Below are positions 20,480 through 64,000 of a stretch of 64,000 nucleotides of DNA, in pieces. The stretch comes from Atrina japonica. Taxonomy: Eukaryota > Mollusca > Bivalvia > Pterioida > Pinnidae. The stretch covers positions 2,303,501 through 2,367,500 of the forward strand of contig BROG01000027.1 of assembly GCA_030159075.1 (NCBI GenBank), given 5' to 3'. The translations under genes were made by a program, and so were the position numbers. Position 1 is the stretch's first letter, and every line of letters starts with the position of its first letter. Under the pieces are notes generated by a model. It was not told the DNA's origin and ran no database searches. It saw only the letters and a list, made by a program, of their open reading frames with translations.

Positions 20480-21115
20480 TATTGCATAATGTATGTAGAG
20501 ATTAGTTTTTTGTGGTTAATAACTTATGAAACAATGAACTTTTTATGATTTAAAACACATAACGTATGTAGTTAAATTTTGAAGGGTAAATAACGCATAA
20601 CGTTTGTAAACATCGACGTTTTTATATTGGTATAACGCATAACGTATGTAGATAGTTTAAATTTTGAATGGTAAATAACGCATAACGTATGTACATAGTG
20701 TACGCATCTGTTTAGTTACTGACTTAAAACGTAAGTAGACAGAATACATTTATGGTTAATACGAATAGCGTATGCATACCATCATGTATAACGTATACAT
20801 AACGTATGTAGATCGTGTGCAATTATGGTTATTCTAAACGTAAAATGTATGTGGACAGTGTACGTTTTGTTTTGTTAAAACCCATAGTGTATATAGATAG
20901 TGTACATCTATGACTTATAACTTTGGTATTATGTTTATAATATTTATATCGTATAACATATGTAGAGAGTGTACATTTTATGGTTGATAACGCATTATGT
21001 ATGTAGACAGTGTACATCGTATAGTTGATAACGCATTACGTATGTAGGCAGTGTACTTTATTGTTGATAACGTATTACATATTCAGACAGGGTATTTTAT
21101 GCACAGTATGTTTTG
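20480..21115. repeat. Degenerate tandem array, unit about 40 bp ('cataacgtatgtagacagtgtacat')
   Basis: The core cataacgtatgtag returns about every 35-60 bases (near 20490, 20560, 20637, 20681, 20799, 20955, 20994, 21036 and others), often followed by acagtgtacat. About 14 diverged copies. The periodic minus-strand open frame at 20829-21017 is a by-product. Confidence 0.75.
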
Positions 21116-33906: not shown

Positions 33907-34243
33907 ATATTATAAACATAATACCAAAGTTATAATGCTCAACGATATCGTTTCTGTCTAGTATACTTCATCAGTTGAGCTCCAATTTGAAAACTATGTG
34001 TTTTTTCTAAAGATAAAATGGTATCATACAAGGCCAAATAATAATCTAAAAGTATAGCCGAAATCCGTCTAAGAGTAACCAATGTAAAAAAAAATGACTT
34101 AGCTTTAGAAATTTTTCGAATTTAAATGATGTTAACAGTGTCAAATATCACTTTAGTATAAAATGAACAGTTGGTACCGAAATACCAGGTACTAGGTTTA
34201 TGTATACCCTCGGGGACTCAAACGGTCCACCAGCAGTGGCAAC
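33907..34243 (-). mobile_element. Hammerhead-bearing 340-bp repeat, copy A (ribozyme damaged)
   Basis: Plus-strand borders are attataaacataataccaaa and ccaccagcagtggcaac. The minus strand carries CTGATGA and GAAAC, but the GTC cleavage triplet region reads GTTGAGC (two bases lost) and stem II is mispaired, so self-cleavage is unlikely. It abuts the SINE at 33717-33902. Confidence 0.75.
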
Positions 34244-36062
<1,819 letters not shown>

Positions 36063-36847
36063 TAAAGAGGATCAAAGTCATACAATTTAGCACCTTGTAA
36101 AGAGGATCAAAGTCATACAAATAAGCACCTTGTAAAGAGGATCAAAGTCATACAGATAATCACCTTGTAAAGAGGATCAGGCATACAGATAATCACCTTG
36201 TAAAGAGGATCAAAGTCATACAAATAAGCACCTTGTAAAGAGGATCAAAGTCATACAAATAAGCACCTTGTAAAGAGGATCAAAGTCATACAGATAATCA
36301 CCTTGTAAAGAGGATCAGTCATACAGATAATCACCTTGTAAAGAGGATCAAAGTCATACAAATTAGCACCTTGTAAAGAGGATCAAAGTCATACAATTTA
36401 GCACCTTTTAAATAGGATCAAAGTCATACAAATACGCACCTTGTAAAGAGGATCAAAGTCATACATATTTACACCTTGTAAAGAGGATCAAAGTCATATA
36501 ATTTAGCACCTTGTAAAGAGGATAAAAGGTAAAAATGAAGAATTACCAATTAATAATAGAAACTCAAGTCCATTTCAACACGACAAATAAGATGTGGAAA
36601 TGGTCTCAATATGAAGAACAATAGCGGATCCTAAACCAGATGGGACCCTGTGTCCTACAAATAAGCACCTTGTTAAGAGGATCAAAGTCATACAAATTAG
36701 CACCTTGTAAAGAGGATCAAGGTCACACAGATAAGCAATTTGTAAAGAGGATCAAAGTCATACAAATACGCACCTTGTAAAGAGGATCAAAGTCATACAA
36801 ATAAGCACCTTGTAAAGAGGATCAAAATAATACAAATTAGTACCTTG
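36063..36847 (+). repeat. 35-bp minisatellite, about 19 copies, interrupted by a SINE fragment
   Basis: Unit caccttgtaaagaggatcaa + agtcatacaaataag. Copies fill 36063-36528 and 36656-36847. Two shortened 33-bp copies lack bases within atcaaagtcat. Variants at the unit end (aaataag, agataat, aatttag) recur in a patterned order. Confidence 0.95.
36529..36655 (+). mobile_element. SINE fragment inserted in the minisatellite
   Basis: aaaaatgaagaattacc...ctaaaccagatgggacc + ctgtgtcc matches the family at 24078/27829. It replaces a few bases of one 35-bp unit. Confidence 0.75.
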
Positions 36848-42975: not shown

Positions 42976-44020
42976 TTAGAAGAGCTAGGGTTTAATACGA
43001 ATTCTGGTAATCCTACATACACACGTAGCTCACTTTCAAAGGACGAGATCCTTCAAACTCACGTGTCCGCATAACGCTCCTTTGATGTACCTACAACCGA
43101 TACTGATTTTGAGCTACCATATTTATATTGGATACCTAAACTTCATCAAACCCAATATAGCAGAAACCAGCGCAAATGTTCTACCAAACCTTTACCTTTA
43201 CCTTTACTCCTTACCAAGATATTGACAGTCGTTAAGAGGAAACTTCAACAATACTGTACAGTTGCTTTTTCCAGAAGCGGTGTAAATCAGATGTAGATAC
43301 TTAGAAATTCTAAGCAACGTCTAGAAAATTTGATATAAAAACATGCTGGGATTTCTAATAGACAATATATTTGCAATGTTCGGAGACGTGGTCTTTCAAC
43401 AAACTGTCGGCATTCCTATGGGAACCAATTGTGCCCCTTAATTGACCCATCTGTTCCTTTATTCATACGAAGCAGACTTCATTCAGAAACTGCTGAATGA
43501 AAAGAAGAAAAAACTAGCGGTGCCTTTTAATTTCACATCTAGATATCGACGACGTTTGTCAATTAATAATTTTCATACATATGTCAATGCGATATATCCC
43601 AGCGAACTAGAAATTAAAGATACAACAGAATCAAGCACACACACTTCATACCTAGACATTTTACTTGCTAGAGACATAGACGGGAAATTGGCAACTAAGC
43701 TATACGACAAACTCGATGACTTCGATTTTCCCATTGTAAATTTTCCACATTTAAGTATTAATATCCCACAGTCACCCACATATGGAATTTATATTTCACA
43801 AATGATCCGATATGCCAGGGTGTGTGTTCAACATATGAAAATTTCAAATACAGATGTAAACTACTCACTGACAAATTGTTGATATTCAAGCATACCGAAA
43901 ATCGCGTTTGATGTCAAACGATGTTTACGGTCGGTATAATAGTCTTGTTTGTGATTACTCTGTTTCACTGCGTGAAATGTTGAGTTGCCTCTTCTTTGGC
44001 GTTTGTTGAAATGTGTGTAC

Positions 44021-44119
44021 ATATTATAAACATAATACCAAAGTTATAATGCTCAAGACGATATCGTTTCTGTCAATTAGACTTCATCAGTTGAGCTCCA
44101 ATTTGAAAAGTATGTGTAC
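44021..44119 (-). mobile_element. Hammerhead-bearing repeat, copy B (truncated, inserted in the RT-element tail)
   Basis: Only the ribozyme-proximal 90-100 bases of the 340-bp repeat are present (attataaacataataccaaa to ccaatttgaaaagtatgtgt). Comparison with the uninterrupted tail at 47040-47085 shows it sits between gtgtac and caattgtgacg. The word tgtgtac occurs on both sides (44014-44020 and 44113-44119), a possible target duplication or microhomology. Confidence 0.8.
44051..44098 (-). ncRNA. Hammerhead ribozyme candidate (type I, very short stem III)
   Basis: Read on the minus strand: GCTCAA (stem I 5') - CTGATGA (44090-44084) - stem II GTC/GAC with loop TAATT - GAAA (44070-44067) - stem III CG-ATAT-CG - GTC (44059-44057) - TTGAGC (stem I 3'). 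Stem I is six perfect pairs, with a further CAAA/TTTG pairing outside an internal loop. This is the layout of type I hammerheads with minimal stem III found in Penelope-like elements and retrozymes, which often act as dimers. Cleavage is predicted after the C at 44057. A weak point is an A-A mismatch where stem II usually starts with G-C. Confidence 0.7.
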
Positions 44120-44330
44120 CAATTGTGACGAGGATTCGCTCCTCACGTATTTCATTTGGACCTGACTGTGGACTCACGGCGGGTGTGACCGGTCGACAGG
44201 GGAGGCTTACTTCTCCATTGCACCTAATCCCACCTCTTAGAGGTCCGTGTTTGTCCATTTATGCCGGATTTGTATCTGTGTCATGGACATTAAAAAGACT
44301 TATACGTTGGTATCGGAGATGTTTTTTATG

Positions 44331-46580
44331 GTATGATTTGGTATTAAATTTAATTTTGTAATTTCTAGTAACTGTATTGATTGAAAAGAATAATTTTGTA
44401 ATTATATATATATATATACAATAACGCATATCTGTATTTGCTACGATAACCAGTTCTTACCAGGAATGACTAAAACATGAAGAAGATGCTGACCGCTTAA
44501 TGATGAATGTATCACTGTAAATGGAACGGCGATCATATACTGACCTCATTTATTGGCTACAAATTTTTCTGGTTGCTTATCCTAAAACGAAATAAAAGAT
44601 TCATATTTGGATAACTGTTTAATGATGACAGACATGGCCTTACAATTGCATTGTTTTTATTTTGACATTCTTGTAAGTATGATTTTATCTGCTGTTTATA
44701 GCAATGTCTTTAGCAGTGGTTAATTAATAAGGAATACACAATTAGTACCTGTGGACCAATTAAATGGTGCCCAGAATTCTTTGTTTTTGTTAATATATTT
44801 AAAATAAGTGAAAGAAAATTATGTCATCATTCAACTAGATCTTCACTCCAAATAAACATTTGTAAATGTTTTCGTTAAATATACCTGTTTTTTCAATGCT
44901 AGAATGATTAATCATTTCATTATCAACCAATTGTAGTAGGATGGTAAATTTACGTACGTTATATGACAGTAAGTTAGAGTCACGTAAACGCGATCCATGT
45001 GATACAGAATACTGTCAATGCATTTGTGGATGCAACATTCTCCCGGATATTAACCTAGATTACACATGTTCTTTCCTCTGTCTCAACATAAAAAAGAAGT
45101 GATGTGTTAATTTATACGACTGAAATGACTATGCACAAATATGAACACTTTTGCATGTGAACAGAAGACATTACTATAAGTTGTATTTTTATTTAGTTGT
45201 TGTTGTATTTTTGTGTCACTGCATTTCATCGAAACACGTGCATAGAAAGCTGTTTTTAAAACTGAAATAATGATAAAGAATAGGCAGTTGGTATTGACCA
45301 TTTTCAGAATGTATACACAGAATAATAGCATGACTACTGAATTCTAAATTTGAGTCAGTGGATAGAAAAGGATAGTAAGATGTTAATATTGGAATCGTAG
45401 AAATTCTTAGATGCTATAAGATAGTATTCTGAAGCACGGTTACAGACAGTGACTCCCTTTCATCATATGTCATCAGGTCAAAATTTATTCTTAAAGAATT
45501 TATAATTTTTAACTCAAATCCTAATTTCTCAAGTTACACTTCTTTACTTTTGGCATATTTTTAGATATGCTTCGAACAGCTCATTTATTTTTTTATCCGA
45601 AATTGGGTAAATTTAATAGTTCATGTAAACAATAACATATTCAACTGCCACAAACAATTTGTATAATGCGCAATTCAAATAAGAAAATCGTTCAAGTGAT
45701 TTATCTACCCAATTAGTATCCAATAATCTGAGCTATAACCCATGGTATATCTTATCTTTTTATATGAGACCCGACAAGGAATTAATTACCGTCAATCAAA
45801 AAGCTTTCTTACAATAACCAAGAAAATAAGTAATAATTATGACGCGTCACATCTTCTGGAACTCCAAAGAAATAAAACGTTGATCTATACAGTTAACTTT
45901 TGGTCATCTTTTACAGGTAGGTGAACTGTTTTTGTAAATTTTATTGGTTCAATATCATTCATGTTAATAATCTGTTATATTATTATGATTCTGAAGTTTT
46001 GATTTCATGAATTTAAGTTGTTCATGTGTATAACTTGTAATATGGGTTAACTTCACATATACATTCATGTGTAAAACTTTTTCATTGTATTTTGTCTGTA
46101 TGCCTTGTGATTATTTTAGCCGTTTAAATAACATAGATACTGTTTTTATTCCAAATCTCATATTTTAGTTATTATAAAAGTTTTAGTATTGTGTACTTTA
46201 CCGCTCTTTCTAATATGCGCACTTTAGTTGAAATAATACAGATGATATCAATTTTATTAGTATAAAAGGTAATTTGAACATTTGAAAATTATTTTTGTTC
46301 TGAACTACTCTGTATTTTAATTGCTATGTGTATATCACTTTCCGGAAATCACTATGTCATGTGAATGGTTCTAAATTTACCTTGTACCAGACTTATTGAT
46401 CCGCTCTACATGAAATGTGCACGCTGACTTAAATCGAGAAAACATTAACTGTAAATTGATTTTACCATTGATCAAGAATGAATCATGGTGTAAGTGTTTG
46501 TACTTTTAATACACAACAACAACAACACATATTGGTTATTTGGTTATTGTCATCATTATTCTACCTTTTATACATATCTA
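44331..46580. other. Mostly unannotated; holds one member of a repeated 60-bp segment
   Basis: At 45862-45918 the segment ggaactccaaagaaataaaa...cgttgatctatacagttaac...catcttttacag closely matches 47790-47848. Both look like the end of a retroelement with an AATAAA word. Confidence 0.45.
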
Positions 46581-47288
46581 CCTTTTATATATATCGACGA
46601 CGTTTTGTCAATTAATAATGACAATTTTCATACATATGTCAATGCGATATATCCCAGCGAACTAGAAATTAAAGATACAACAGAATCAAGTACACACGCT
46701 TCATACTTAGACAATTTACTTAATATAAACACAGACGGGAAATTAGCAACTAATCTATACGATAAACGCGACGATTTCGGCTTTCCCATCGTAAATTTTC
46801 CACATTTAAGTAGTAATATCCCTCAGTCACCTGCATATGGAGTTTATATTTCACAAATGATCCGATATGCCAGGGCGTGCACAACATATGAAGATTTCAT
46901 ATACAGAGGTAAACTACTCACTGACAAATTATTGACAGGGATATCGAAAACCGCGTTTAATGTCAACGTTCCGCAAATTTTATGGTCGGTATAATAGTGT
47001 TGTTTGCGACTACTCTGTTTCACTAAGTGAAATGTTGAGTTGCCTTTTCGTTGGCGGTTGTTGAGACGTCTGTACCAATTGTGACGAGGATACACTCCTC
47101 ACGTGTTTCATTGGACTTGACTGTGGACTCACGGCGGGTGTGGCCGGTCGACAGGGGATGCTTACTCCTCCATGACACCTGATCCCACCTCTTGGTTCAC
47201 AGAGGTCCGTATTTGTCCATTTTTACCGGATTTGTATCTATGTCCTGGACATCCTAAAGATTTATAATTTGGTATCTGAAATTTTTAC
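46581..47288 (+). mobile_element. Reverse-transcriptase retroelement, copy 2 (5'-truncated)
   Basis: Starts just before the active-site box, here intact as YIDDVLSINND (46589-46621). It continues open through FHTYVNAIYPSELEIKD, DGKLATNLYDKRDDFGF, YGVYISQMIRYARAC and GKLLTDKLLTG to about 46935. The 3' tail follows: gagttgccttttcgttggcg, caattgtgacgagg, acggcgggtg and ggtatctgaaa. It lacks all RT motifs before the YIDD box, so it cannot be active. It shows the uninterrupted tail sequence used to size the insertion in copy 1. Confidence 0.8.
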
Positions 47289-50187: not shown

Positions 50188-52430
50188 GAGTTTCAGATAT
50201 TGATCCATAGACTTACTAGTCATATACTAGGTTATAGATTAGTGGACATTTGGGCCGGTGAAAGATCGCACATTCTCCAATGCACAATCATTTCATTCCT
50301 CAACTAATGGATCTAGGAATTGGACAAATAAATCTTCAAGGTTGATGGACCTTCAGATCAGTGGACGGTCCAAACTTCTCTCTATGTCAGTATTTTATGC
50401 CCCTAGGAACATATTGATGTCGTTGAGGAGTTAACCGGTTTTGAAGAATACCCGTGTTATATTTCCCATGTACTTTACTGATGTTTTTAACAGTAGTTAC
50501 TGTATGATTGAAAAATTGTTTTGCTTGGCTTATAACTCCAGTAAAAATAAAAGTATGAAAAAATAATTGTTTTATGAAAGACAAATAAATCTTGATACAA
50601 TGTATCAGATAAAATAGATGCTTTAGAGCGAGAATTTCTTAACATATAGATTGACCAATGCATTTGGAAATAGACAAAACAGACAAATATGTCACAACGT
50701 ACTTATAAACTGAATCATATCTGTGTTGCAAAAAATAACAGAAGTAGCCCAACTTTCCCGTCCCATCATCATATTCATATACGCAACCAACAAATCAATT
50801 CACCACATGTATCTGTTATCTTAATCACCACTACATCAGCTTTCTTTGTTTTAGTCGCCTATACCGCTTCTTTGGCACTATAAATGTTCATTCAAGTTGG
50901 ATTATGAATTGTCATATGAAGTTGTTATGCAGGGATTTAGCAAAATTATTCTAACTAGCCAGACTCCTCTCAGACAAACCAGTGTTGTCTGGTGTCGAAA
51001 TAGCGAGAGCATTGAACATTAACATGAATTATTGTACGGCTATTACTGGACAAATCACACTCTAAACTAATGTGATATGAGCACGTTAGACAACAATCAG
51101 ACAGGATATCTAAATTCAATAATATTGATTTGTTGTGATAAATCCAAACCAATTAACATACGGACGGAATTACAGCAATCATTTGTGTTTGATATAAAAA
51201 TCACACATAAGAAAAGGCTATTTTATGACATAGAAAATGGTCATAATTAACTGACACCTCGTATATAAGCACCGTGAATAGTTGTAATTGGACAATACGA
51301 ACTGTGTGACCAGCTAACACTGTGTGATATTGATAACATAAAAGGTCGTGTCCCAGAGTGAACTATTTGTCGCGTCGATGTTTGGTCGATATACTGCACT
51401 AGATTTAAGCTACTCGGAAGGTTTTTTTGTGTATCAGTCTGGCGCAAAGTTTAAAGGTTATGTTTGTTTGACATGCATTTTGGACAAATTTGTGTTTAGA
51501 CCAATGATTGGTCATTTTGGACATCTTTTATCTCTCTCCTTTTGAAGTTCAATTTATATTGGAAAATAATAAATTTTAACCATAAATTACACCTACAAAT
51601 GCGTAAGAAACTAAACAATATTTTATAATGACAATATACATAATTTAATTAATATCTATAGAAATTTTGAATTTTTAAAAACAGTCATTATAAAAATCAA
51701 CTCTATAAGCATTAATATTGATATGGTGAATTTTGAATTATAAAAAGTTTGATAAAAGTCTTGCAACAAATTACATAATGTTATACGCCACCAATTGAAA
51801 ACTATAGGTGATATGTGTACAAATGTTTTTGAGCATCTTTGCATAGAAGAATAAGTGCATTCATTCTCTTAAAAAAGAAGTTTCCATGAAATTCGGAAGA
51901 ATACTTTTGAACTGTGTGTAGAAGTCTAGGCCTACGTGCATCGAATGTGGAAAAAAGTTATATAATCTTATATAGGTTCGATGCGTGGATAAGGCGATCT
52001 CCACTTGCCGAATGAGATCTCATTTCCATGCTACAGCCATGTTTGATTATTTTTCTATCATGCTTCAAATACAATTCATTCACGTAAAAAATCTGGTCGA
52101 CTTCTAATGTACTTTATTCTCATTACAAAGAACGACGTCATAATATAACATTGTGACGTCAGACCGCATGTAACTGTATCTATACATGTCCAAGAGGAAA
52201 TGATAATAGAATCTTATATGGGTGTGTAAAATGGATAAGGAAATATATTCTCGATTGGCAAGAAATCTGATAGTTCAATCCGAGGACTTGGTAAAATAGC
52301 AGATACGCCTGTCCCAGGTGGGAGGAAAAGGTATTCTAGGAAATCCTGAAAATGTGTTCTAGGAAATCCAGAAAAACTTTGAAATTAAAGTTTGATTTCT
52401 AGAAACCGAATATTGTAATCTAAGTTTTAG
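50188..52430. other. Gene-free stretch
   Basis: No feature recognised. Confidence 0.45.
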
Positions 52431-52761
52431 ATATTATAAACATAATACCAAAGTTATAATGCTCAAGACGATCGCTTCTCTCAATCAGACTTTATCAGTT
52501 AAGCTACAATTTTAAATAGATTTTCTAAAGGGAAATTGGTATAATACAAAGCCAAATAATAAATCCAAATGCATAGCCAAACCGTCTAAGAGTAACCACT
52601 GTAAAAGGATGACTTTCTTAGCTTTTGAATAATTTAGAATTTAAATGGTGTTATCAGTGCCAAATATTCCTTTAGTATAAGATTATCAGCTGGTACCAAA
52701 ACAACAGGTACTAGATTTATGTATACCCTGGGGACTCAAACGGTCCACCAGCAGTGGCAAC
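52431..52761 (-). mobile_element. Hammerhead-bearing 340-bp repeat, copy C (ribozyme damaged)
   Basis: Full-length-like, from atattataaacataatacc to ccaccagcagtggcaac. In the minus-strand core CTGATGA has become CTGATAA and GAAAC is GAAGC, so the ribozyme is probably inactive. Confidence 0.8.
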
Positions 52762-53600
<839 letters not shown>

Positions 53601-53921
53601 TAGAATCCATATTTGTATCATAGTACTTGACAAAAGTTCATATCTGTATCAGGTAAATGATTATATCATTATTATTATCATCTGCGAAATCCCATATCCC
53701 TGCCAAATTAAAATAGACAAATTTGAGATTCTTAATAGTTCACGGAATTGACCATACGTCTGTCATTTTGTAAAATTGAATTTACATCCACCAAGTAAAT
53801 TCAAAATATACAACATGACATTCTTAACCTTTACTCAATGTATCTGTATGCATGAATATAAACCTAAACCTTGTAATAGTTGTAGAAATTTGTATCGACT
53901 TTTAAGTTGGTATATATATAT

Positions 53922-54260
53922 ATATTATAAACATAATACCAAAGTTATAATGCACAAGACGATATCGTTTCTGTCAATTAGACTTCATCAGGTGAGCTCC
54001 AATTTGAAAAGTATGTGCATTTTCTAAAGATAAAGTGGTATCATACAAGGCCAAATAATAACTCTAAAAGTATAGCCGAAATCCGTCTAAGAGTAACCAC
54101 TGTAAAATGACTATCTTAGCTTTAGACAATTTTCGAATTAAACAGTGTCAACATTGCCAAATATTACTTTAGTATAAGATGAACAGCTGGTACCGAATTA
54201 CCAGGTTACTAGGTTTATGTATACCCTCGGGGATCCAAACGGTCCACCAGCAGTGACAAC
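53922..54260 (-). mobile_element. Hammerhead-bearing 340-bp repeat, copy D (near full length)
   Basis: From atattataaacataatacca to ccaccagcagtgacaac. On the minus strand CTGATGA, the stem II segment, GAAAC, stem III and GTC are all kept, but stem I (GCTCAC against TTGTGC) has two mismatches. It is followed after 12 bases by copy E in the same orientation. Confidence 0.85.
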
Positions 54261-54271
54261 ATAGTGGTTAT

Positions 54272-54416
54272 AAATATTATAAACATAATACCAAAGTTAT
54301 AATGCTCAAGACGATATCGTTTCTGTCAATTAGACTTCATTAGTTGATCTCCAGTCTCTAAAAGTATAGCCGAAATCCGTCTAAGAGTAACCACTGTAAA
54401 AATGACTATCTTAGCT
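54272..54416 (-). mobile_element. Hammerhead-bearing repeat, copy E (truncated, internal deletion)
   Basis: The ribozyme end is well kept (stem III, GAAAC, GTC, TTGAGC), but CTGATGA is mutated to CTAATGA. About 60-70 bases are missing between ctccagt and ctaaaagtatagccg. Confidence 0.8.
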
Positions 54417-61593: not shown

Positions 61594-62818
61594 CTGTTAC
61601 ACGAATACCACGTCTACATATAACAAGGCAAAACATAAAATGACAGAACACTAAGTATGAAATTATCATGTGTTGAACCCGTTTAGAATCAGTGGTTCGT
61701 TTGGAAGATATAAATACTAAAGGCAAGAGAAAAAAAATTAACATTTCAATGTGGAAAGTTGTCTATAGGAAAATTAAAATTATCATTTTTGTAGTATGGC
61801 CTTGTTGTTTATTCACAAGCTGTGTCTACAGTAAGCAAAATGTTCAGGTAGGGCATGTAGCTGGATTTATTTAAGTTAAACCCAAGTATTACGCGTGTTT
61901 GTAAAATTATGTGTGATGTCTTAATTTCTAGTTAGTTGAGAAATGTCGCATTCACATAAGTATGTGAGTTGCCATTACTGATTAACAAAACGTCGCCGAT
62001 TTATCAGAATGTCAAATCCAAGACTACAACATTTCTTTTGATGCAAAAGCTTCTAAATGAAGTCATAATGGTGATTTGATATAATACGAGCACATGGCAG
62101 CATAAATACGTGGTGATGTATGTGCTGCAGAACTCAGGAAAGATCTAACATTTTTAGATGAGTACTTCTTTGGGAAAATCTGTATGTATTTCTTTTGAAA
62201 GGGCCATAACTCCGGGGCCCAGGAATGAAAATAATCGTTTCAGCAAGCCAGTGTTTTATATATTTAGATACACAACCACCAGGCATATAATATGTCTATA
62301 TAGACTGAAAATACGAGATACAAATTCATCATTGTAAGCAATAAAACTTAATACAAGGTTTAATGTAGTATCCTAAACATGTTTGGAATGGCTTTTATTT
62401 ATCATGCATTCTAATCATCCCTTAGTTATTGTAATCCTGATATTTACGGAGAAGTGCATGAACTCATACACTGATGACAGCTTATGCAATGTTTCGACTT
62501 CACCAACCTTGAACTCATATCAACCTCAGCTGAAAGACATCTGTTAACTTATTCATACAGTATACATATTACTAAAACCTCTTTGTAACACCGATTATCT
62601 GTCTATACGTTACTTTGCATATATTGAAAGTGACATGTTGTAAATCCAAGTTGGAAAACGTTATTCTGTCGCACGTGTCTTACGATAGGAAATGGTCAGA
62701 AACAAGTTATGACCAATCCCTCAGTAACTTTGTCCTTCCACAGGTATCATGCTATTGATTAATTAATGTCTTGATATATTCATGTCAAATGTTTTATTAT
62801 TGACGTCTATATCTGTAA
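61594..62818. other. Gene-free stretch
   Basis: Nothing recognised. Confidence 0.45.
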
Positions 62819-63078
62819 ATATTATAAACATACCAAAATGATAATGCTCAAGACGATCGTTTCTGTCAATTAGCCTTCATCGGTTGAGCTCCAATTTTAA
62901 ACAGATTTTCTAAAAGAACAGTGGTATAATACAAGGCCAAATCCGTCTAACAGTAACCATTGTAAAAAGATGACTATCTTAGCTTTTGAATTATTTAGAA
63001 TTTAAATGGTGTTATCAGTGCCAAAAATTACTTTCGTATTAGACTATCAACTGGTTCCAAAATACCAGGTACTAGGTT
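62819..63078 (-). mobile_element. Hammerhead-bearing repeat, copy F (truncated)
   Basis: attataaacataccaaaatg to aataccaggtactaggttga; the end with ccaccagcagtgg is missing. The minus-strand core has CCGATGA instead of CTGATGA and a shorter stem III (CGATCG); GAAAC, GTC and stem I are kept. Confidence 0.8.
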
Positions 63079-63194
63079 GATGGAATTAATTTTATATTTA
63101 TATGTTTCATTACCAAAATGAGAAAAAACAAGAGTAAATATAAAACTCAAAGATACCAAAGTATTTATCGAAAGACAGTTCATGAGACAAAATA

Positions 63195-63609: not shown

Positions 63610-64000
63610 GAATACGATTCAACAAACTGTCGGCATTCCTATGGGAACCAATTGTACCCTTTATTCGCTAACATGTTCATTTATTCCTACAATACAGACT
63701 TCATTTAGAAGCTGCTGAATCAAAAGAAGAAAAAGTTAGCGGTGTCCTTTAATTTGACATTTAGATATATCGATGTCGTTTTGTCAATTTATAAATTTTA
63801 TACATTTATCAATGCGATATATCCCAGCGAACTAGAAGTTATAGACAGAACAGAATTAAGCACACACCTTTCATACTTAGACATTTTACTTACTAAAGAC
63901 ACAGACGGGAAATTAATAACTAATCTATACGACAAACACGACGATTTCGGCTTCCCCATCTTTAATTTTCCACATTTAAGCAGTAATATCCCACAATCAC
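63610..64000 (+). mobile_element. Reverse-transcriptase retroelement, copy 5 (cut by the window end)
   Basis: Begins at caacaaactgtcggcattcc (the QTVGIPMGTN box), continues through the YSYNTDFI region with an in-frame TAG, a YIDVVLSI-like active-site box (second Asp changed to Val), YPSELEV and DGKLITNLYDKHDDFGF. It runs off the window within a SNIPQS segment. The Asp to Val change and the stop make it inactive. Confidence 0.8.

Follow-up and report, generated by a model that had tools for sequence, protein, structure and literature searches.

Retrozymes and Penelope-Like Elements as the Closest Described Systems

The system closest to the element analysed here is that of the metazoan non-LTR retrozymes of Mytilus galloprovincialis, Acropora millepora and Ambystoma mexicanum (PMC7229834). 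According to the available part of that paper, these elements have no LTR, PBS or PPT, and their target duplications, if present, exceed 4 bp. In the mussel, about 5000 type I hammerheads reside in repeats of 350-390 bp, with slow self-cleavage and abundant circles, and the axolotl Amex2 hammerhead, although mismatched (U-U) at its helix II base, still cleaves, better as a dimer (PMC7229834). Plant LTR retrozymes (PMC4918200), as far as the available text describes them, are likewise non-autonomous, carry a hammerhead and go through a circular RNA cycle, of the kind proposed for the present element; they differ in their type III hammerheads, LTRs, PBS/PPT and 4-bp duplications (PMC7229834).

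The element described below shares with the metazoan retrozymes its low GC content, thousands of copies, an organization ranging from single to tandem, and the coexistence with Penelope-like elements (PLEs) (PMC7229834), the likeness to the mussel retrozymes being drawn from their published description. Its unit of 359 bp falls within the 350-390 bp of the mussel repeats, and its stem III of 2 bp with a tetraloop is also present in invertebrate retrozymes and in Amex2, whose U-U mismatch at the stem II base is here replaced by A-A. Two further features set it apart from the retrozymes of PMC7229834: a fixed 3′ end together with the 5′-end pattern, which is not among the features described in the available part of that paper, and a subfamily with a 6-nt stem III (CGATCG) beside the 8-nt form. 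Judged by its sequence, the retrozyme of this genome is a new member of the known group of non-LTR retrozymes.

A second point of comparison is provided by the Penelope-like Poseidon elements of Anolis, in which, as reported in the accessible portion of PMC11167929, a minimal hammerhead is followed by a nearby fixed internal start of reverse transcription, a layout resembling the one found here. AT-rich targets and partial tandem copies are also common to Poseidon-type PLEs and the present retrozyme. On the other hand, the retrozyme differs from the PLEs of PMC11167929 in having no ORF, one class of 3′ end instead of two, and a different hammerhead sequence, and from the PLE of its own genome in making little use of (TA)n targets.

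The Hammerhead Motif and Its Detection

The motif lies on the minus strand at positions 44051-44098 of the window, i.e., the whole 64-kb stretch of DNA that was analysed. Direct reading of the letters, backed by a descriptor search, finds all hammerhead parts in order, as the preliminary description had claimed. Stem I is formed by GCTCAA (44096-44091) and TTGAGC (44056-44051), giving the six perfect pairs already reported, and the distal pairing of CAAA (44105-44102) with TTTG (44042-44039) proposed beyond its internal loop is also in place. The core CTGATGA (44090-44084) leads into stem II, in which the strands GTC (44082-44080) and GAC (44074-44072) flank the loop TAATT (44079-44075) and stand above an A-A mismatch that is real and can be read directly at 44083 (5′ side) and 44071 (3′ side). 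The motif continues with the core GAAA (44070-44067), the stem III segment CGATATCG (44066-44059) and the TC of the cleavage site (44058-44057), the cut being predicted after the C at 44057. Stem I therefore comprises 6 bp, stem II 3 bp above A-A, and stem III 2 bp closed by an ATAT tetraloop; the type I core (CUGAUGA, GAAA and UH, three helices, stem I open) is complete.

A full descriptor, demanding at least 5 bp in stem I, at least 3 bp in stem II with a mismatch permitted at its base, and at least 1 bp in stem III, has 44051-44098 as its sole site in the 64-kb window and matches in only one of 300 dinucleotide shuffles. The looser pattern CTGATGA..GAAA..GTC occurs four times in the window against 0.27 expected; two of these matches represent one chance site at 45445-45476 and the other two are family copies. 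Rfam yielded no hammerhead match at the gathering threshold over the whole window, possibly reflecting a limit of sensitivity. With E up to 10, the matches around the site were all of non-hammerhead families (mir-134, Gut-1, SNORD82, snoZ199), and 13 loci with related copies gave no hammerhead match either. The preliminary description had suggested a covariance-model or descriptor scan as a check, and had named a missing covariance-model match together with a failure to cleave as grounds for dropping the candidate; the descriptor recovers the site, whereas the Rfam search supplies the covariance-model half of those grounds. When the 73-nt RNA of the motif is folded alone, another minimum-energy structure (-13.4 kcal/mol) is preferred over the hammerhead (-6.5 kcal/mol), tertiary contacts lying outside the energy model, and the fold is hardly more stable than those of shuffled sequences (z -1.0). 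The evidence from the letters confirms 44051-44098 as a real hammerhead motif, for which self-cleavage is predicted.

A Truncated Copy Inserted into a Repeat

The motif is carried by an insertion of 92 bp (44021..44112, minus strand), a 5′-truncated retrozyme copy delimited by alignment to other copies and by an empty paralogous site. Its 3′ end falls at the usual site. On the 5′ side the copy begins near unit position 263-269, an approximate figure because similarity to other copies continues through the duplicated bases. The comparison with the empty site reveals a target-site duplication, TGTGTAC, on the left (44014..44020) and on the right (44113..44119). The repeat interrupted by the insertion (43540-44324) has an uninterrupted paralogue at 46588-47286 that contains the empty target, TCTGTAC (47069..47075). 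Adjoining the fixed 3′ insertion end there is a terminal inverted repeat, TATTATGTTTATAATA (44022..44037, minus strand). The empty site in the paralogue and the 7-bp duplication together show that the hammerhead is unrelated to the plus-strand reverse transcriptase (RT)-like frame of the region and arrived separately. Since the 44051 copy is a solo 5′-truncated fragment, it could by itself yield no circle.

RT-like repeat fragments are present in the window at 43442-43882, 46494-46994 and 63623-64000. A Pfam search of the first two gave no match; the fragment at 46494-46994 has 7200 relatives in protein collections, and PF26215 appears in 3 of 120 among the matches listed. These fragments were rejected as a partner of the retrozyme, as they form the target of the insertion.

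A Dispersed Family with a 359-bp Unit

In the 832-Mb source genome, the core pattern CTGATGA-N4..30-GAAACGATATCGTC has 3574 exact matches and the 3′ tail GTATTATGTTTATAATATTTATA has 2332, the reversed control giving 0 in both cases. Seventy loci were taken as the listed core-pattern places on six contigs, and 40 more by following the list of tail places from its top, passing over those already in the core list and two others; the sample is non-random, drawn from the first contigs, and this way of choosing makes exact cores scarce among the 40 tail loci. Two loci (L004 and L028) show others a second time and were retained only in the unit alignment and the first mismatch tally. With one real unit of L022 serving as the ruler for numbering, the unit measures 359 bp with 33.7% GC, its predicted cut follows position 324, and its 3′ end reads ...TTTGGTATTATGTTTATAATATTTA. 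Copies are single, frequently 5′-truncated, or tandem, with a maximum of five full units plus a part (L066).

The family thus has what is expected of a metazoan retrozyme: a unit of 150-450 bp, a type I hammerhead, many dispersed copies, and dimers to multimers. The LTR layout is absent from the copies read; the duplication in the window is of 7 bp, and the duplication signal is weak across copies. The window motif very probably represents the ribozyme part of a non-LTR retrozyme, a 359-bp retroelement that is non-autonomous and present in thousands of copies. The genome copies support the earlier assignment of the motif to a minimal-stem-III type I hammerhead of a retrozyme-type element; of the wider attribution to Penelope-like elements or retrozymes, the retrozyme part stands, and the Penelope-like hammerhead of this genome has a different sequence.

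An Inherited A-A Mismatch at the Base of Stem II

With A opposite A at the foot of stem II, the ribozyme is expected to be weakened. Among the 91 cores that could be parsed, from 137 loose detections whose remainder was spurious or unparsable, this position is A-A in 82, C-A in 5, G-A in 2, A-T in 1 and A-G in 1. In places picked by the tail with the core disregarded (28 of the first 30), A11.1 is A in 23/23 and A10.1 is A in 20/21; an overlapping first tally, in which some loci are counted twice, agrees (47/47 and 42/45 letters, respectively). This prevalence in parsed cores and tail-picked places indicates that the mismatch is inherited and not the product of damage, and bears out the suggestion that it marks a lineage. 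The standing A-A mismatch offers a natural test of the stem II requirement in a working hammerhead.

Most old copies are broken, all core letters being kept in 4 of the 20 tail-picked copies that span the whole motif. Over the 28 tail places, the letters that differ amount to 6.0% of cells in the core, 4.3% in stems I and II, and 8.2% in unit positions 1-270, at best a slight excess of core conservation over the rest of the unit. Stem III exists in two forms, CGATATCG and CGATCG, and 7 of 19 loci in L071-L090 are two bases shorter there. The 6-nt palindrome CGATCG is seen in the window copies at 52428-52763 and 62808-63082, and in several of L071-L090. By analogy with axolotl Amex1, copies with a CGATCG stem III may work only as dimers.

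Fixed 3′ Ends and Scattered 5′ Ends

Insertions of the family share a 3′ end. Of 77 sampled chains, 72 stop at unit position 355-359, and the remaining five end at positions 174, 265, 335, 344 and 346; 15 further matches lacking a whole core were excluded from the chains. Because these loci were picked by core and not by tail, the common 3′ end is not built in by selection. Similarity continues for 1-4 nt past the 3′ end in 52 of the 64 ends that could be anchored (8/72 were unanchorable), so that the distance from the predicted cut to the 3′ end is mostly 36-39 nt. The base following the anchored ends is T in 62/63. The 72 chains sharing the 3′ end are 80-1853 bp long, and their 3′ flanks contain neither poly(A) nor a constant simple-repeat end. 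A fixed insertion end shortly 3′ of the hammerhead is a Penelope-like trait that is thus found in a retrozyme that is not itself a PLE member. In the papers and listings consulted from the open-licence literature, no description was found of a fixed 3′ end in animal retrozyme insertions; the same holds there for one-template arrays and for a standing A-A mismatch.

By contrast, the 115 5′ ends collected from the core and tail samples are scattered across the unit. Two clusters emerge, at positions chosen after inspection and with expectations scaled to the 22 ends at 300-343, as the tail sample favours coreless copies. At 331-334, immediately 3′ of stem I (325-330), there are nine firm ends and one doubtful (L016) versus 2.0 expected (Poisson 2e-4 for nine). 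At 317-319 there are six versus 1.5 expected (Poisson 4e-3), a count that includes the junction of an internal deletion. In L002, L003, L015, L039, L097 and L106, 5′ ends or junctions at 317-319 fall midway through the palindrome of stem III. Some events are non-independent, as the flanks of L034 resemble those of L046 and the two chains of L063 are local duplicates. Target duplications are weak overall, direct repeats of at least 8 bp being present at the ends of 7 out of 79 chains against 3.1 expected; this tally exceeds that of the 3′ ends by two chains that are second views of window copies.

One-Template Arrays and a Proposed Replication Cycle

Template sharing within arrays is apparent from a comparison of their units. 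In 32 pairs from 26 multi-unit chains, adjacent units diverge by 2.6%, versus a median of 7.1% between arrays, and for 25 of the pairs no unit from another array is equally close. The seven exceptions, with a unit elsewhere as close or closer, are in L031, L060, L053, L018, L040, L002 (8.6%) and the window pair 54416-53906, which diverges by 7.6% and whose member at 54269..54416 is no nearer to its neighbour than to other arrays. Rare variants are common to the adjacent unit in 96 of 192 cases, against 5.6 expected. Taken together, the end and array patterns are as expected if a single RNA, circular or multimeric, were copied repeatedly from an internal start that is fixed. The array evidence could also stem from a linear multimer transcribed off a young array, or from duplication at the DNA level once the insertion had been made.

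In the cycle that we propose, read-through transcription of units would be followed by cutting of the multimers at GUC by their hammerheads, and a ligase would then close the circle. For mussel and axolotl retrozyme RNA, circularisation in vitro by the tRNA ligase RtcB has been published. An RT presumably provided by another element would start near the inverted repeat, at a fixed internal site that mostly lies 36-39 nt to the 3′ side of the cut. From there it would copy anything between part of one turn and several turns of the circle into a nick in AT-rich DNA. The 3′ end would thereby be fixed, whereas 5′ ends would be scattered and the units of a tandem would derive from one template.

A more specific version, in which circles are copied by a Penelope-type RT, the 331-334 cluster is the footprint of its stops, and the A-A hammerhead is active in vivo, is put forward tentatively and is on balance unlikely. 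If true, a Penelope-type RT would start internally at an inverted repeat just 3′ of a hammerhead, with several turns possible, and the 331-334 cluster would be a genomic trace of RT halting where the ribozyme is folded or where the cut RNA ends. Given the fixed 3′ end, the scattered 5′ ends and the one-template arrays, the question of which RT starts at a fixed site on a circular template, a topic of the available part of a 2020 review (PMC7761336), becomes directly testable.

Penelope-Like Elements of the Source Genome

PLEs are present in the source genome as separate elements. One of them, L119, contains a single frame that combines RVT_1 (1e-6, just below the Pfam cut-off) with GIY-YIG (6.8e-9). 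The element is flanked by two type I hammerhead motifs of canonical stem II that are oppositely oriented. The L119 hammerhead-tail recurs exactly at 107 places in the source genome and at 0 when reversed. Across the hammerhead-tail and GIY-YIG places listed on 25 contigs, there are 24 same-strand pairs less than 1 kb apart, 23 of them spaced 194-359 bp. Ends were sampled from 20 of the 107 hammerhead-tail matches (L120-L139), those near GIY-YIG matches being preferred. The family so defined, including L119, adjoins (TA)n and has two classes of 3′ end, resembling the two-class PLE tail that is attributed to two internal RT starts in the available text of PMC11167929. The retrozyme lacks the RT and GIY-YIG ORF of a PLE, its 359-bp unit being too short. 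At L132, a retrozyme unit begins immediately after a PLE tail in (TA)n, roughly 70 nt beyond the predicted cut.

Candidate partners were also sought beside individual copies. A repeat upstream of L033 and L087 was rejected as an autonomous partner, since it is present tail-less at several other loci and the retrozymes of L033 and L087 are therefore insertions into that repeat. None of the GIY-YIG loci L111-L119 (9 of at least 137) shares the retrozyme unit.

Weighing the Alternatives

Movement of the retrozyme by a Penelope-like RT, with an internal start in the stem-loop downstream of the hammerhead, is compatible with the proposed cycle and not an alternative to it; we regard it as quite possible but somewhat doubtful. 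The layouts are alike, as the retrozyme ends mostly lie 36-39 nt beyond the predicted cut and L119-family copies reach (TA)n at 45-63 nt (13/20) or 86-96 nt (7/20) past theirs, and GIY-YIG matches are abundant in the source genome (at least 137). Against this, the nine GIY-YIG loci examined share no sequence with the unit apart from one 25-nt tail-like match, judged to be a stray tail insertion. Moreover, (TA)5+ is found in 20/20 PLE copies, and (TA)4+ within the next 24 nt in only 5 of 72 retrozyme ends, in a comparison whose windows differ in length and that covers one PLE family. The rarity of (TA)n after retrozyme ends suggests that the L119 family is probably not the direct partner.

If the element were SINE-like, with an incidental hammerhead, and a LINE copied its linear transcripts ending at the tail, this would account for the fixed 3′ end, the common 5′ truncation and some target duplications; we consider it improbable, given 3′ flanks devoid of poly(A) or a constant simple-repeat end and one-template arrays of several units with partial first units, which are unusual for SINEs. 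Still less credit is given to a non-autonomous Helitron/Helentron-type element with a 3′ hairpin, of the kind that carries satellites in bivalves. Its terminal 3′ inverted repeat and internal tandem units would be in keeping with the copies, yet Helitron/Helentron elements have a defined 5′ end and are not known to make a target duplication, whereas the 115 5′ ends here are scattered over the whole unit and the window copy is flanked by a duplication. That the motif is a chance product of AT-rich DNA would agree with the silence of Rfam and with a minimum-energy fold other than the hammerhead. The probability of this is practically negligible, and as to sequence the idea is already refuted by the single match in 300 shuffles and by the dispersed family of thousands of copies.

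Other Retrozyme Copies in the Window

Besides the insertion at 44021-44112, the window holds further members of the family, for a total of six hammerhead-bearing copies and one tail-only copy. All hammerhead parts are kept only by the 44051 copy, the other five, all on the minus strand, having lesions in the core, stem I or the cleavage site. Three of these are near full-length: 33907..34245 lacks the TC of the cleavage site and has a changed stem II, 52428..52763 combines the core lesion CTGATAA with the 6-nt stem III CGATCG, and 53906..54260 has two mismatches in stem I. Directly upstream of the last, a 5′-truncated copy with an internal deletion (54269..54416) carries the core lesion CTAATGA, and the copy at 62808..63082, also internally deleted, has the core lesion CCGATGA and a 6-nt stem III. 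The tail-only insertion (20915..20945, plus strand) begins with position 332 of the unit, immediately beyond stem I on its 3′ side. A 35-bp minisatellite is also present in the window at 36059-36847, in two blocks of about 13.5 and 5.6 copies.
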